Shown here: in pieces, positions 25,517 through 31,368 of the stretch | Position numbering within the stretch: the first letter of the stretch is position 1 | Layout of the letters: every line of letters starts with the position of its first letter | Source of the DNA: Halomonas elongata | GTDB taxonomy: Bacteria; Pseudomonadota; Gammaproteobacteria; Pseudomonadales; Halomonadaceae | Reading direction: 5' to 3' | Assembly: GCF_029081005.1 (NCBI RefSeq) | Contig: NZ_JAJQTQ010000001.1 | Span: 1-64,000 of the forward strand | DNA: 64,000 nucleotides | Program-made: the position numbers and the translations under genes | Notes under the pieces: generated by a model | Told to the model about the DNA's origin: nothing | Seen by the model: only the letters and a program-made list of their open reading frames with translations | The model's database searches: none

Positions 25517-26926
25517 TCAAGCCCGATTTGAGTGGGCAACGTTGGGCTTGAAGGTCGAAGGCTCGAGTTCGTGACGGGCCAGCAACTTGTAGAAATCCGT
25601 TCGGTTGCGGCCGGCGATCCGCGCCGCCTGAGTGACATTGCCCTCGGTGATCTTGAGGACCTTGATCAGATAGCTGCGCTCGAACCCCGCCCGGGCGTCG
25701 TTGAAGGTCGGCAGGGCGTTTTCCTCGGCCACCAGTGCCTGAGCCACCAGCGCCTCGGGAATGATCGGTGAACTGGTCAGGGCCACGCATTGCTCCACCA
25801 CATTGACCAGCTGACGCACATTGCCCGGCCAGGCGCTCGAGGCCAGCAGGTTGATGGCCTCCTTGGAGAAGCCCTTGACGAAGGGCTTGTGGCGTTCGGC
25901 GGCCTGGGTCACCAGATACTTGGCGAGCAGCGGTACGTCCTCGGCACGCTCCTTGAGCGGCGGCAGCTTCAGGTTCACCACATTGAGGCGATAGAAGAGG
26001 TCCTCACGGAACTCCCCATCGTGCATGGCCTGGCCCAGATCACGATGCGTCGCCGAGATCAGACGCACATCCACGGATACCGAAGCGGTCGATCCGAGGG
26101 GACGAATCTGACGCTCCTGCAAGGCACGCAGCAGCTTGACCTGCAGGGCCAGCGGCATGTCACCGATCTCGTCGAGAAACAGGGTGCCCCCATCGGCAGC
26201 CTGGAACAGGCCCCGGTGATCACTGATCGCCCCGGTGAAGGCTCCCTTGGCGTGGCCGAACAGTTCGCTCTCGAGGAGTTGCTCGGGCAAGGCGCCACAA
26301 TTGATGGCGATGAAAGGCTTGTCGGCACGCCGGCTGGCCTTGTGGATGGCGCCGGCCAGCAGTTCCTTGCCGGAGCCGGAGGCCCCGGTCACCAGAACGC
26401 TGACATCGGAGCTCGCCACCATCCTGGCCTGCTCGAGGATGCGTTCCATTTCCGGACTACGGGTAATGATCGCCTCGCGCCAGCTGTCATCCTCGCCGGC
26501 CGCCGCCGAGGTATGGGCCAGGGCATCGTCGATGGTAGTGAACAGCTCGTCCCGATCCACCGGCTTGGTGAGAAAGCCGAAGACCCCCTGGCGCGTGGCG
26601 CTGACGGCATCGGGGATCGAGCCATGGGCGGTGAGGATGATGACCGGCAACCCCGGCAGGCGTCGCTGGATTTCCTGGAACAACGCCAGGCCATCCATCT
26701 CGTCCATGCGCATGTCGGACAGCACCAGATCCGGGCGCCCGGTATCCAGATGCTTGAGGGCCTCCCGGCCGCTCTCGGCAGTGGTCACGCGGTAGCCACG
26801 GCTCTCCAGCCGCATTCCCAGCAGCTTCAACAGGCTGACGTCATCGTCCACCAGCAGGATGTGGGCCGTCTGATCGGCATTGGCTCGGGAGTGTCCGCTC
26901 GGGGTCATGTCGTGTCTCCGCGTCAT
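25517..26926 (-). CDS. glrR: Sigma-54-dependent response regulator GlrR (QseF)
   Basis: 469 residues from the ATG at 26926, which overlaps the qseG stop (ATGA). A second ATG at 26908 has the better ribosome site (CGGAG). The receiver domain has phospho-acceptor Asp71 in [12 protein letters not shown]. The AAA+ domain has GASGSGKE (Walker A), GAFTGA (sigma-54 contact) and [10 protein letters not shown] (Walker B). The C-terminus is a Fis-type HTH ([20 protein letters not shown]). In enterobacteria it activates glmY and rpoE. It is the last gene of the glrK-qseG-glrR operon. Confidence 0.94.
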
Positions 26927-27468
26927 TCGGTACGCTGTCGCGAATTGATGTTTCGCTCGATGTCGGTCAAGGCATCGAGCTTTTCGGTCAGTGCCTCCTT
27001 CTCCTCCGCCAGGGCACCACGTGCCTGCTCACTGCTGACCAGGCGGTGCTGCTGATCGCGACGTCGCTCGATCTCGTTGAGCCAGTAGCGCAACAAGGGT
27101 TGCAAGCGCGGCGGCGCCGCGTGCAGGTCGGCCTTGAACAATTCGGACGCCTGCTTCCATTGCGATGGCGGCCCCCAGGCCAGCACCACGGCCCTGGCCA
27201 GACGTGTCTCGGTCTGGGTGCCGACGAGACGCTCCCGCATGCGTTCACGCCATTCGCCATCGCCACGCTGAGACGCCAGGCCGAAGGCCACCCAGTCACG
27301 CAACAGGCAGGTTTCGTCAGCGAAGCCGGGCACTTCGGCGTAGCAGTTCGGCGTCTCGACCTTGGCCACCGTGGTCTCCGCCACGTCATCCCGGGATTGC
27401 GCGGGCAACCACTGGCAACCGGCCAGCCAGGCGGCGGCCAGGCAGACCATCAGGGCTCGTGCGTTCAT
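26923..27468 (-). CDS. qseG: QseG-like outer-membrane lipoprotein
   Basis: 181 residues with a lipoprotein signal peptide ending in LAGC (Cys18), a small central domain and a C-terminal coiled coil (about 135-180, EALTEKLDALTDIERNINS). Family proteins are outer-membrane lipoproteins that tune the GlrK kinase. It lies between glrK (1 bp gap) and glrR (4-bp overlap), the same order as in E. coli. Identification rests mainly on context and on the lipobox, since the sequence family is divergent. Confidence 0.85.
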   Translation of the reverse strand: MNARALMVCLAAAWLAGCQWLPAQSRDDVAETTVAKVETPNCYAEVPGFADETCLLRDWVAFGLASQRGDGEWRERMRERLVGTQTETRLARAVVLAWGPPSQWKQASELFKADLHAAPPRLQPLLRYWLNEIERRRDQQHRLVSSEQARGALAEEKEALTEKLDALTDIERNINSRQRTE

Positions 27469-27469
27469 A

Positions 27470-28954
27470 TCATCCGCTCCTTGCGTGCGTTCCCGCCAGT
27501 GCGGGTAATGTTTCTATTGCGTCGTCATCCATGACGGGCGCCGGCAGCGTCAGGCGGAAACACACCGACAGCCGATCCTCGACCAATTCCAGTGTACCCT
27601 GCTGCAGGCGCGCGCAGTCGGCGGCCACCGAGAGGCCGATGCCCGACCCCTTCAGCGCCCCCTTGCGGCGTATACGGCCCTGGTAGAAGGCCTCGAAGAG
27701 ATGATCGCGGTCCTCATCGGGAATCGACTCTCCGCTGTTGGCGACCTCGATTACCAACGATGTCGAGGTGGTACGGGCACGGATATCCAGTTCTCCCCCG
27801 TCCTCGCCATAGGCGACGGCGTTGGAAATGAGGTTATCGAGGATGCGCCCCGTCGCGGTGCGGTCGATCCGCCAGGTCACGGGACCATCGAAACATGCGA
27901 TCCGCATCTCCTTCTGCTGCAGCGCCAGCCGATGCTTGGCCAGCACCTCCTTGGCCACCGTTGCCAGATCCAGACATTCGAGCTCGAGGCGTCGGTTGTG
28001 CTGCAGCAGGTTATAGTCGAGCAACTGTTCGATGAGCTGCTGCAATTCACTGCCACTGGCATCGATCAGCTCGAGTATCTCGCGCTGGTGCTCGGTGATC
28101 TCGCCAGCCACGCCATCGGTGAGCAGCGCCGACCCCTCGCGCACGCTGGCCAACGGTGTCTTCAGTTCATGGGACATGTGGCGCAGGAATTGCTGTTTCT
28201 GCTCCTCCAGCTCGTCGAGCCGTGAAGAGAGCCAGTCCAGTCGTTCATCCAGCCGGACCAGTTCGGCGGGGCCCTGGACGGGCGTCACGCTCTGCTGTTG
28301 GCTACCGCTACCGATGCCCAGGATATGCCGTTCGAGCTGGCGGATCGGACGGATGATCAGGCGCGTGAACAACAACATCAGCAGCAGACTGGCCGATACC
28401 AGCGCCGCCGTCTGCCACCATAGTCGCGTCTGCACCGATTCGGCCCGGGCGCGAATATCATCGAGCCGCTCATCGATGCGCCGATTGGTGGCCTGCCGCA
28501 TGGCCTCGGTATGCCGGGCAAACGGCAGGAAGGCCGACAGGCTATCCCGAAACGCCTCGACCGGCAGGTCCGGCAGCTCGGCGAGCTCGTCCAGCTGTTC
28601 GCTGAGCGCTGCGACATCCGGATCATCGGGCAACAGCTCGCGTTGCCTGGCCAGCAACTGGCGGAATTCCACCAGGCGCTCATCGTAGATATCGAGCAGA
28701 CTCTCCTGCTCGACCACCGCGTACTGACGGGCCGAACGTTCCAGCTCCAGGGCCAGGGCCCCCAGGGTCCGGGCTCGCCGGGTCTCCTCCACCGCCTGAC
28801 GGGCACTGACATCGGCCAGGCGCGACAGTTCGGAGAGCGCCTGGCCGGCCTGGAACATCAGTACGGCCAGCGGCAACATCACCATGAGAAAGGCCAGCAA
28901 CACCAGCTGCAGCAAGGAGCGTGGGCGCCAGCGACGGGAAACGGCTGAAGTCAT
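27470..28954 (-). CDS. glrK: Sensor histidine kinase GlrK (QseE)
   Basis: 494 residues from MTSAVSRRWRPRSLLQLVLL (28954), chosen by alignment with the E. coli N-terminus. The frame stays open far upstream. There are two membrane helices (about 14-36 and near 190) around a helical periplasmic domain, then HAMP, the HisKA box RHMSHELKTPLASVREG and a HATPase with NLISNAVAYGEDGG and GSGIGLS. It phosphorylates GlrR. The signal is uncertain. The small-RNA candidate ends about 105 bp upstream. Confidence 0.94.
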   Translation of the reverse strand: MTSAVSRRWRPRSLLQLVLLAFLMVMLPLAVLMFQAGQALSELSRLADVSARQAVEETRRARTLGALALELERSARQYAVVEQESLLDIYDERLVEFRQLLARQRELLPDDPDVAALSEQLDELAELPDLPVEAFRDSLSAFLPFARHTEAMRQATNRRIDERLDDIRARAESVQTRLWWQTAALVSASLLLMLLFTRLIIRPIRQLERHILGIGSGSQQQSVTPVQGPAELVRLDERLDWLSSRLDELEEQKQQFLRHMSHELKTPLASVREGSALLTDGVAGEITEHQREILELIDASGSELQQLIEQLLDYNLLQHNRRLELECLDLATVAKEVLAKHRLALQQKEMRIACFDGPVTWRIDRTATGRILDNLISNAVAYGEDGGELDIRARTTSTSLVIEVANSGESIPDEDRDHLFEAFYQGRIRRKGALKGSGIGLSVAADCARLQQGTLELVEDRLSVCFRLTLPAPVMDDDAIETLPALAGTHARSG

Positions 28955-29058
28955 GGCCAGCGTTCTATCGAAAAAATTGAAAGGAAGCACCATCGCTCTT
29001 GCTCGAGAATACCAGAGTTTCGCCGGCCAGCCTGCAAACCATCGTGCACGAGAATGTG

Positions 29059-29395
29059 CAGCAAAAAAAAAGGCCGGCAGGGCCGGCCCAATACGCAGGG
29101 AACTGAAGGGTTGGAAAGCCGCTCGATCGACTGGCCTGGTCCCGTCCGTCGATCGACTCTCCATGGGCCTGAAAAGGCCCTCGAAGCCACCCGAAGCCGT
29201 CTGCCACCAGGGGCCGGACTCGAGTGTCGGGTGGCGAACCACCCTTGCTTCGATCCTGGCAACGTCGCCTCTCGAGGCGCCGCTGCGCGATTCGTCCCCC
29301 GTCTCGGGGGAGAGGCATCCTTGCCAGAGCATCCTTGCCCTTTTCGGTACACGTCCTTGACGTCGTCGGTACCGTCTCATCGCAACCTAAAGTCA
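29059..29395 (-). ncRNA. Candidate CsrB/RsmZ-like small RNA
   Basis: The minus strand ends in a strong intrinsic terminator (GGCCGGC/GCCGGCC stem at 29072-29088, then nine T opposite 29071-29063). No gene precedes it on that strand. Upstream are short hairpins whose loops show GGA: GGCA-AGGA-TGCC and GCA-AGGA-TGC in tandem (29311-29338), an ACGT pair around CAAGG (29350-29362), and an 8-bp CGATCGAC/GTCGATCG stem (29122-29157) whose loop holds GGAC and GGGAC. Loop-exposed GGA repeats are the mark of RNAs that sequester CsrA/RsmA. The 5' end is a guess. GlmY-type RNA, which precedes glrK in E. coli, is the alternative. Confidence 0.55.
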
Positions 29396-29471
29396 CACAT
29401 CGCTGGAGCAGACATTGGTCGCTTCGAGGCCGGGCACACAGGGCAGTGATGTCGCATGCCCCGCAGCGACC

Positions 29472-29504
29472 GGAGAACGATTCGAGCCGTATGAATCGTT
29501 TTCC
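29472..29504. repeat. 12-bp inverted repeat upstream of the RNA candidate
   Basis: GGAGAACGATTC (29472-29483) pairs with GAATCGTTTTCC (29493-29504), with one G-T pair and a 9-nt loop. It lies about 80 bp before the proposed RNA start and has no T-tract. It could be an upstream regulatory site. Confidence 0.5.
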
Positions 29505-29697
29505 GTTTGCTCACCCTTAACTGCTGCCATATGCATGCCATAAAAACAAAAGTCGATTATTATCAGGTAATTAAAAACCGGCCTTGTGACCAAATCTCCC
29601 CAGCCCGGACACAATCGCCTCATTGAACGCCAAAAAACGTCGCTATATCGAGACGCCTATCGAACGAAGAAAGAAAAGCGCTTTTATAACAACAAGA
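29505..29697. other. Intergenic AT-richer stretch
   Basis: No gene or clear signal was seen. It lies between the inverted repeat at 29472-29504 and the argA terminator and may carry the promoter of the small-RNA candidate. Confidence 0.4.
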
Positions 29698-29725
29698 TAA
29701 AATGTCGCCCTTGGGCGACATTTTA
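29698..29725 (-). terminator. Terminator downstream of argA
   Basis: A 12-bp stem, TAAAATGTCGCC/GGCGACATTTTA (29698-29709 with 29714-29725), has a CTTG loop. A/T at the stem ends allows function on both strands. It lies 34 bp past the argA stop. Confidence 0.85.
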
Positions 29726-29758
29726 GATCTCGATGAACAAGGAAAAGCGCCGAGACTC

Positions 29759-31072
29759 TCAGGAAATCGACTTGACCAGCACCTTCGACTGCCTGGCGTG
29801 ATTGTAGGTATCGCGCTTGAGAGGCGGCAGATCGGCAAGTTCAGCGGTACCGAAGCCATGCTCGAAGAACCAGTGCGCCGTATGAGTCGTCAAGGCAAAC
29901 AACGAGTCCAGTCCCAGCCGACGGGCACGGCGCTCGACTTCACCCAGCAACAGGTCGCCCCGGGCGCCGCCACGATAATCGACATGTACCGCCACACAGG
30001 CGAGCTCGCCCATGCTGGCTTCGGGGAAGGTATGCAGGGCGGCACAGCCGATGACCATGCCATCGCGCTCGATGACCACATAATCATCGATCTCGTACTC
30101 CAGCCGTTCCCTGGAGCGCGGCACCAGCATGCCACGCCGCTCCAACGGCTCGAGCAATTCCAGCAGGCCCCCGACGTCCGCGACCTGGGCGGCGCGCAAC
30201 TGTTCGTAGCGGTGGCGGGAAATCATGGTGCCCACGCCATCGCGGGTGAACAGTTCGCCGAGCAGGGCATCGTGATCGCGCCACGACAGCAGGTGAGTAC
30301 GCGCCACCCCATGACGAGCGGCGGCACAGGCCGCCCTCAGGTGACGATAGGCTTCGTCGCCGGGGGAGGCGTCATCGAGCCAAGTGCTTGCCTCATCCGG
30401 CGTCAACTGGCGTTGCAGCTGCCCCCGGGCATCGCACAGGCCACTGGCCTCGCCGAGCAGGATCAGCTTGTCGGCGGTCAGTGCCGTGGCGACCTTCTGG
30501 GCCACCTCGGCGGCATCCAGATCGAAGACCTCACCGGTGCTGGAATACCCCAACGGTGGCAGCAGCACCAACGAGCCTTGTTCCAGCAAGCCGGTGATCG
30601 CCGTCTCGCGAACCCGGCGCACTTCGCCGCTCCGCGCGAAATCGACACCATCCCGCACGCCCAGCGGCTTGGCCATCACCAGATTGCCGGACACGGCAGT
30701 CATTTCGACACCGTGCAACGGCGAGTTGGGGAGTCCCAGGGAAAGCCGCGACTCCAGCCACAGACGCTGCTCGGCGGCGACCCGCTCGACCCGTGCCATG
30801 ATCGCCTCATCGGCGACCCAGCGACCATGATGACGGCGTGGCGTGATCGAGGCCGCCTCGAGGGCACCGTTCACCTGGGGGCGGATCCCCAGCACCACCA
30901 CCAGGCGAACCCCCAGGGTGTGCAACAGCGCCAGATCCTGGATGAGCTGCTCGCCACGCCCCTCGGACACCGCCTCACCCTCGATCAGGATGACGAAGGT
31001 TCGCCCTCGATGCGCATTGATATAAGGCGAGGAATTGCGAAACCAGTCGACGAAGGGAAAGCGAGTATCCAA
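29759..31072 (-). CDS. argA: N-acetylglutamate synthase
   Basis: 437 residues, close to E. coli ArgA (443). The N-terminal amino-acid-kinase-like domain (FVILIEGEAV, then LVVVLGIRPQV) is the arginine-sensing part. The C-terminal GNAT domain (about 300-437, CVAVHVDYRGGARGDLLL in part) transfers acetyl from acetyl-CoA to glutamate, the first step of arginine synthesis. Feedback inhibition by arginine is known for this type. It is monocistronic with its own terminator. Confidence 0.96.
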   Translation of the reverse strand: MDTRFPFVDWFRNSSPYINAHRGRTFVILIEGEAVSEGRGEQLIQDLALLHTLGVRLVVVLGIRPQVNGALEAASITPRRHHGRWVADEAIMARVERVAAEQRLWLESRLSLGLPNSPLHGVEMTAVSGNLVMAKPLGVRDGVDFARSGEVRRVRETAITGLLEQGSLVLLPPLGYSSTGEVFDLDAAEVAQKVATALTADKLILLGEASGLCDARGQLQRQLTPDEASTWLDDASPGDEAYRHLRAACAAARHGVARTHLLSWRDHDALLGELFTRDGVGTMISRHRYEQLRAAQVADVGGLLELLEPLERRGMLVPRSRERLEYEIDDYVVIERDGMVIGCAALHTFPEASMGELACVAVHVDYRGGARGDLLLGEVERRARRLGLDSLFALTTHTAHWFFEHGFGTAELADLPPLKRDTYNHARQSKVLVKSIS

Positions 31073-31133
31073 GGCCGCACTCCGGCAGCAGGTGAAAGGG
31101 GAAGATGAGCCTTGACTATATCAGACACGCGAG

Positions 31134-31182
31134 CTGGAAGCTGGAAGCTGGAAGCTGGAAGCTGGAAGCTGGAAGCTGGAAG
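31134..31182. repeat. Heptanucleotide tandem repeat (CTGGAAG) x7
   Basis: Seven perfect head-to-tail copies of CTGGAAG lie in the 297-bp gap between argA and the phosphate transporter gene. It is about 60 bp upstream of the argA start, so it may sit in the argA promoter or leader region. Confidence 0.9.
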
Positions 31183-31218
31183 GCAGCATGAACCCCGACA
31201 ACATGGGGTCAAGGTTTT

Positions 31219-31368
31219 TTCTTCCAGCTTCAAGCTTACGACTTCAAGCTCCCGGCGGAGCCGGGGACTTCCAGCTTCAAGCTTACGGCCGCGAAGCGGA
31301 CGATCTTCCAGCTCCCGGCGGAGCCGGGGACTTCCATGGCTTCAAGCTCCGGGCGAAGCCCGGGCGGG
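31219..31368. repeat. Degenerate repeat block between argA and pit
   Basis: CTTCCAGCTTCAAGCTTACG occurs at 31226 and again about 50 bp on. CAGCTCCCGGCGGAGCCGGGGA-type hairpins occur twice, and CCGGGCGAAGCCCGG closes the block. CTTCCAGC is the reverse complement of the heptamer repeat upstream. The block ends at the stop of the phosphate transporter gene. Confidence 0.7.

Follow-up and report, generated by a model that had tools for sequence, protein, structure and literature searches.

Gammaproteobacterial RNAs that titrate CsrA are described as being mastered by two-component systems of the GacS-GacA type (PMC7366521). SELEX with CsrA yields RUACARGGAUGU, and RsmE binds ANGGAN hexaloops; McaS and GadY are described in the same source as base-pairing RNAs that have at least two GGA motifs and bind CsrA (PMC7652899). 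In E. coli, GlrK/GlrR (QseE/QseF) and sigma-54 drive GlmY, a regulator of envelope homeostasis, and QseF binds three TGTN12ACA sites above the sigma-54 glmY promoter, helped by IHF (PMC6075780). Within Halomonas, one source lists the CsrA regulon of H. hydrothermalis as uncharacterized (PMC12889724).

We analyzed an RNA gene that lies directly before glrK in a Halomonas-type genome. On the evidence of its sequence and its relatives, the RNA very probably sequesters the global regulator CsrA, and it seems to be wired to GlrK/GlrR and not to the usual Gac-type sensor. It is likely to be a CsrA decoy that GlrK/GlrR would switch, with a 3' module that probably base pairs as well.

A noncoding RNA gene between argA and glrK

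The window, the whole 64,000-nucleotide stretch of DNA that was analyzed, comes from a genome of 4.18 Mb in 170 contigs. Judged by glrK, its closest named relatives are H. eurihalina (92%) and H. caseinilytica (90%). The minus strand carries argA, an 800-bp gap, glrK, a small gene in the qseG position, and glrR, in that order (Table 1). No NCBIfam model scored above its cut-off for GlrK among the matches listed, and NCBIfam and Pfam searches with the small gene gave no match. The order in E. coli K-12 is purL, glmY, glrK, qseG, glrR, which agrees with the initial annotation that this is the place equivalent to that of glmY. The genome has a single csrA gene (94.6 bits against a cut-off of 27), with a nearly complete CsrA domain match (positions 1-52 of 53). 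A short tandem repeat, with units that read (S)WKLEAG / SSFQLPA, lies at 31112-31290 between argA and a transporter gene (32635-31370).

The nine-U terminator in the initial annotation is real, and by its G-C pairs and T run it is the strongest of five minus-strand terminator-like sites in 28600-29900. Upstream of it, the conserved part of the RNA accepts insertions and deletions of 1 to 2 nucleotides, such as T/TT/TTT in the 5' block, across 57 aligned sequences. Therefore, the region is noncoding, as had been proposed, and a protein-coding reading is ruled out. The range first given (29059-29395, or about 300 nt) was too short. Conservation and the location of a sigma-54 promoter place the 5' end near 29513, so that the RNA is about 450 nt long. 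The full 451-nt RNA folds with a minimum free energy z score of -4.37 compared with 100 shuffles.

An alignment of 55 sequences upstream of glrK, with rows picked by glrK and the terminator pattern, covered Halomonas, Litchfieldella, Billgrantia, Chromohalobacter, Salinicola, Modicisalibacter, Cobetia, and other genera; a weak Pseudomonas match (L085) was omitted. Four parts stand out in it as conserved: the -24/-12 promoter element, TGGCACG-N4-TCGCA; a 5' block that contains GCGATGTGTGACTTAGGTTGCGATGAGAC; the sites reading CANGGA; and ACCCTTCAGTTCCCTGCGTA together with the terminator. The 5' block is also nearly invariant in a 57-row alignment, whose rows were picked by a pattern containing TGCTC and GCGATGTGTGA.

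Table 1. Features of the RNA gene and its neighbors in the window
Feature	Position	Strand	Basis or remark
sRNA gene, about 451 nt	29063..29513	-	Terminator and sigma-54 promoter spacing; 5' end estimated, +/- a few nt
Intrinsic terminator, nine U	29063..29089	-	GGGCCGGC-CCT-GCCGGCC, then nine T
3' module CCCTTCAGTTCCCTGCGTA, candidate base-pairing seed	29092..29110	-	Nearly invariant in 55-row alignment (rows not picked by module)
H3, CsrA-type hexaloop hairpin GGC-AAGGAT-GCC	29314..29325	-	Conserved in 55-row alignment
H2, CsrA-type hexaloop hairpin AGGGC-AAGGAT-GCTCT	29326..29341	-	4/4 pairs changed on both sides (46 sequences)
H1, stem-loop with CAAGGA	29346..29373	-	5/8 pairs changed on both sides (46 sequences)
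Conserved 5' block TCTGCTCCAGCGATGTGTGACTTTAGGTTGCGATGAGAC	29374..29412	-	Conserved in 55-row alignment (rows not picked by block)
Sigma-54 -24/-12 promoter TGGCATGCATATGGCA	29525..29540	-	GG-N10-GC spacing; conserved columns in 55-row alignment
Proximal GlrR-like enhancer site GTCTCGATATAGCGAC	29639..29654	-	GTC-N10-GAC at -114 relative to the -24 element
Distal GlrR-like enhancer site TGTCGCCCAAGGGCGACA	29703..29720	-	Second GTC-N10-GAC site; fits E. coli QseF TGTN12ACA (PMC6075780)
argA	31072-29759	-	Precedes the 800-bp gap that holds the sRNA gene
glrK (sensor kinase)	27470..28954	-	HisKA and HATPase_c domains; named for its place beside glrR, as in E. coli
Small gene	26923..27468	-	qseG name from position only
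glrR (sigma-54 activator)	25517..26926	-	NF011695 GlrR equivalog, 809.6 bits against a cut-off of 763

Tandem CsrA-type hairpins

The tandem hairpins with GGA in the loop that the initial annotation proposed are real (H2 and H3). It also proposed other stems of this kind, of which a third site, CAAGGA in H1, held up. The remaining six of the nine GGA motifs in the 451-nt RNA are mostly paired or partly open in the predicted ensemble. The H1-H3 GGA sites themselves are predicted to be only partly open in the full-length ensemble. When 29417-29300 is folded locally, H2 and H3 form and their loops hold the GGA. For H1, the consensus fold of 57 rows places the GGA in an internal loop, on its 3' side, while the window's own sequence favors the hairpin ACGUC-AAG-GACGU, in which the last two letters of this GGA are paired. 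Across 57 aligned sequences, the sites read A-N-G-G-A with a free second letter. This is the same ANGGAN loop that RsmE binds (PMC7652899).

We counted ANGGAN hexaloop hairpins, with at least three pairs, in 59 related RNAs that were chosen by the 3' module and promoter regardless of GGA (the exception being the divergent L135-L137, found with the 5' core model, R1). At least one was present in 57 of the 59, and exactly two were present in 54. The mean was 1.95 per RNA compared with 0.11 in dinucleotide shuffles (maximum 0.24 of 200), a statistic that ignores relatedness. The background over the whole window was 0.23 per kb and strand.

Changes in the stems are stronger evidence than these shuffle counts. 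In the RNAalifold structure, 8 of 25 pairs have changed on both sides. We also drew a structure of our own on an alignment of 46 sequences and scored it there. This set held 41 of the 51 distinct main sequences, for which the H3 pattern had served as the selection criterion, and five divergent or second copies, with L142 and L146 left out by choice. In this set, 99.0% of cells were paired, and 9 of 15 pairs and 39 cells had changed on both sides. Shuffles had means of 2.8 pairs and 7.5 cells, and slid versions of the structure had at most 4 pairs and at most 6 cells. The double-sided changes in H2 came from 1 to 3 sequences per pair. The H3 stem was invariant, which is uninformative either way because the main rows were picked with H3's own pattern. 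Divergent relatives have the loop on other stems (CTCTCCC-ATGGAT-GGGAGAG in L146 and GGGGT-AAGGAT-ACCCC in L135), and L146 keeps two hexaloop hairpins and the third ANGGA site. The initial annotation had named a lack of conservation of the GGA hairpins in related genomes as refuting its reading; they are conserved there, with compensatory stem changes.

Promoter motifs, distribution, and copies at other loci

Of the 61 units that carry the 3' module, 59 match the sigma-54 pattern, whereas shuffles gave 4.2 of 61 (maximum 10 of 200). These units came from 62 loci: L039 and L144 lacked the 3' pattern, and one locus gave two units. The two units without the promoter pattern were L042 (a cut contig) and L061. 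Within 260 bp above the promoter, GTC-N10-GAC was present in 45 of the 59 units that had one (1.5 in shuffles, maximum 7 of 100), and TGT-N12-ACA was present in 30 (2.2 in shuffles, maximum 5). The exact GTC-N10-GAC was absent from 14 of the 59. The enhancer-like sites cluster at about -114/-125 and -179/-190, with each pair one helical turn apart. QseF-type sites are also readable above E. coli glmY. The distal site, a perfect GlrR-type palindrome, sits in a hairpin at 29725-29698 that was listed as terminator-like behind argA. This hairpin may serve both as the end of argA and as an enhancer, or it may be no terminator.

Promoters that depend on GacA/UvrY carry a TGTAAG-N6-CTTACA box. A scan of the whole genome, allowing up to 2 mismatches, found 26 such sites, none of them at the sRNA gene. 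This is weak evidence because pattern controls gave higher counts than the real scan (48 versus 26 per strand). There is an exact Gac-type box at G000:C85:20732-20749 (L164), upstream of a gene that by eye resembles TssB (type VI secretion), and by eye no tandem ANGGA hairpin array lies beside it. Rfam found nothing at E <= 1 at three Gac-box loci. Other CsrA-binding RNAs may be encoded elsewhere in the genome.

A 561-base DNA query matched 88 of 90 genomes of the same genus, the source genome counted. We then used R1 and a model of the 3' module (R2) on 250 sampled genomes of the family. R1 matched 144 genomes (15 of 24 genera), R2 matched 157 (18 of 24), and a GlrR query at E <= 1e-130 matched 158 (18 of 24). 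By comparison of the lists by eye, R2 and GlrR were together in 156 genomes, and 91 had neither; this co-occurrence follows genus lines, and the 250 genomes are not independent events. Only G212 had R2 without GlrR (E 9e-4), and G033 and G140 had GlrR without R2 (G140 weakly, 3.9e-147). In G033, glrK and glrR are present, and the RNA was not found. Five genomes with a more distant GlrK (G091, G105, G106, G107, and G125) had no R1 or R2 match.

Searches of the order, in genome sets that included some family members, gave no convincing match outside the family. R1 matched 11 of 390 genomes, ten of them from the same family, with no convincing outsider; the single one (34.8 bits) has a sequence that reads by eye as coding. 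R2 matched 19 of 381, of which twelve were from the same family and seven scored at most 32.3 bits. Two of these seven were inspected, and both were without the CCCTGC[GA]TA core. In another family of the order (L156 in G271, 944-1400), GTCGCCATATAGCGAC and a sigma-54-like promoter precede glrK by eye, followed by a small gene for an EF-hand-like protein in place of the sRNA.

At least two R2 matches, some of them weak, were found in 43 of the 157 R2-positive genomes. In genera g15 and g20 the sRNA family is expanding, with four to six 3' modules each in G103, G193, G199, and G202. One type of second copy is flanked by a HIT-domain gene and a GGDEF gene, as checked with Pfam in L086 and by eye in others where read. 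We cut 26 units to their last 240 nt (L142 and L188 were also submitted and had no pattern match). Four of these units, from L184 and L185, sit in tandem at the glrK/glrR locus (L185 and L064 have a 3' end in common). Leaving them aside gives 22 copies at other loci, among them the prophage-like L090. By pattern, 18 of the 22 have a sigma-54 promoter (that of L177 is poor), and for 13 of those 18, GTC-N10-GAC or TGT-N12-ACA lies upstream of the promoter. Hexaloop hairpins, at least one per copy and often built on different stems, are present in 14 of the 22; the other 8 have none in the last 240 nt. The 3' module is common to the copies at other loci in an alignment of 28 of 72 distinct 3' ends, whose rows were picked with a pattern containing AGTTCCCTGCGTA. 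Taken together, the copies show the 3' module and the ANGGA hairpins to be parts that recur and can occur separately.

At L064 and L184, two tandem RNA copies lie near glrK/glrR, and the second is short and without hexaloop hairpins. L090 (G084:C1:2996600-2998300, minus strand 698-748) is a region that looks prophage-like by eye, with AAGTTCCCTGCGTATTG, its own terminator, and no sigma-54 promoter by pattern; it is possibly a mimic of the 3' end of the sRNA. With the queries used, no element like it was found in viral contigs or phage records. A mobile origin of the RNA was rejected after the 511-base region had no match in plasmids, the 53-base 3' end had none in phage records, and the 3'-end pattern had none in viral contigs.

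These copies bear on the idea that the RNA is a long leader or attenuator of glrK and not a separate RNA. It does lie directly upstream of glrK on the same strand. However, most of the copies elsewhere match the sigma-54 promoter pattern independently, the L086 copy sits between HIT and GGDEF genes, and in G110 the 3' module is downstream of glrK on the opposite strand. Because copies occur at other loci, the gene is independent, and the leader reading can hardly hold.

Some members of genus g16 have fewer sites: G104 has one hexaloop hairpin and G124 has none, with the promoter and 3' module kept. Therefore, CsrA binding is not the sole conserved role, and the G124 case suggests a separate function for the 3' module. 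The RNA could then be mainly a base-pairing sRNA in which the 3' module does the work and CsrA binding is accessory (for stability, chaperoning, or McaS-like cross-talk). This is possible, if rather unlikely. Few parts are conserved as strongly as the 3' module, which persists in copies with the GGA hairpins reduced or absent, and McaS and GadY provide a precedent for RNAs that both base pair and bind CsrA through at least two GGA motifs (PMC7652899). However, nearly all main-set RNAs and the majority of the copies at other loci (14 of 22) retain the tandem ANGGA hairpins, with stems that have changed in a compensatory way. Sites with an accessory role would hardly need that conservation. The search for targets described below also argues against this reading. 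The CsrA decoy is the one we prefer.

Targets, known RNA families, and a proposed mechanism

We searched the window for complements of the two conserved elements. With seeds of 10 letters, the 3' module had 1 match (1.6 expected) and the 5' block had three (3.8 expected); with seeds of 9 letters, there were 3 (6.8 expected) and 21 (15.6 expected), respectively. We also tested pairing with the start region of glmS at ten loci, one of which had no recognizable start, leaving 9 genomes. For the 3' module, z ranged from -2.4 to 1.2, at different sites. For the 5' block, z ranged from -0.5 to 1.2. Among the window seeds and glmS, therefore, no base-pairing target was found: seed matches were at or near chance, and glmS had no consistent site.

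The glmS data bear on another alternative, that the RNA and its copies are counterparts of GlmY and GlmZ and control glmS or envelope precursors through RapZ. The place before glrK and the sigma-54 promoter with QseF-type sites are as at E. coli glmY, many genomes have a second related RNA elsewhere, as with GlmY and GlmZ, and in two of the nine genomes, the source genome among them, pairing of the 3' module with the glmS start exceeds that of shuffled seeds (z below -2). Even so, pairing was not clearly above shuffled seeds in the other seven for the 3' module or in any of the nine for the 5' block. By eye in four rows, the glmS start is about 20-30 nt behind the upstream gene. R1 and R2 did not find E. 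coli glmY or glmZ, and the GlmY and GlmZ Rfam models had no match at E <= 10 in the window region and 8 related loci. We consider this alternative improbable. Short copies (GAGTTAGCAC) do resemble GlmY (GAGTTAGGCAC) by eye.

Rfam gave no match when the whole window was searched at gathering thresholds. At E <= 10, a search of 28950-29760 gave nothing relevant, with no match to CsrB, RsmX/Y/Z, GlmY, or TwoAYGGAY RNA; weak scores for suhB/mmgR, SorY, and RyhB stem from the terminator end. The RsmZ model (RF00166) had no match in the whole genome at E <= 0.001. The label "CsrB/RsmZ-like" in the initial annotation is partly supported. A conserved minus-strand RNA with CsrA-type hairpins is there, but the comparison with the Rfam models, which had been proposed as a check, came out negative. 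The RNA looks built to work like a CsrB/RsmZ RNA and matches none of those families' Rfam models. Searches of titles and abstracts in the open-access literature, which mostly excludes subscription journals, gave no report of this RNA and none on GlmY in Halomonas, and an earlier description may exist.

By mechanism, the closest kin are CsrB/RsmZ; by position and promoter, GlmY; and by possible double function, McaS. Like CsrB/CsrC and RsmX/Y/Z, the RNA is noncoding, ends at an intrinsic terminator, and has tandem ANGGA hairpins in a genome with CsrA. Unlike them, it has sigma-54/GlrR-type promoter motifs in place of Gac control, and to our knowledge its conserved 5' block and 3' module are not known from CsrB/RsmZ RNAs. 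It has three good ANGGA sites, whereas CsrB has 22 GGA motifs (PMC7652899). It shares with GlmY/GlmZ the place before glrK-qseG-glrR, the promoter and QseF-type motifs, and a second related RNA in many genomes. However, it is about 450 nt long with CsrA-type hairpins, whereas GlmY is 184 nt, and it has no consistent sign of glmS pairing. The TwoAYGGAY RNA motif of Rfam has two hairpins with AYGGAY loops, whereas this RNA and its relatives have ANGGAN loops in which N is usually A or U. McaS and GadY are alike in a plausible double function, with GGA hairpins and a possible pairing region. Their position and promoter type differ, and no Rfam match links them to this RNA.

We propose the following mechanism for the CsrA decoy. 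When GlrK/GlrR is active, GlrR would bind the upstream sites and drive sigma-54 transcription of the roughly 450-nt RNA that ends at 29063. The three tandem ANGGA sites, in two hexaloop hairpins and one further site, would bind CsrA dimers. As the main effect, this titration would lower free CsrA and release the mRNAs that CsrA controls. The nearly invariant C/U-rich element beside the terminator would probably provide a second, base-pairing activity.

Tentatively, and with more doubt than for the RNA itself, we extend this to the Halomonadaceae. GlrK/GlrR (QseE/QseF) may feed directly into the Csr system there through a family of two-part RNAs, of which some genomes have several. In each, a sigma-54-driven CsrA decoy would be fused to the base-pairing 3' module that the family shares. 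GlmY/RapZ of enterobacteria and the decoy may be alternative RNA outputs of one two-component system, placed at the same promoter position.

If the proposal is true, CsrA would be tied to GlrK/GlrR and sigma-54, and one promoter position with its two-component system could drive quite different RNA outputs. Halomonas is used in biotechnology, and the RNA is a candidate handle on its Csr system.
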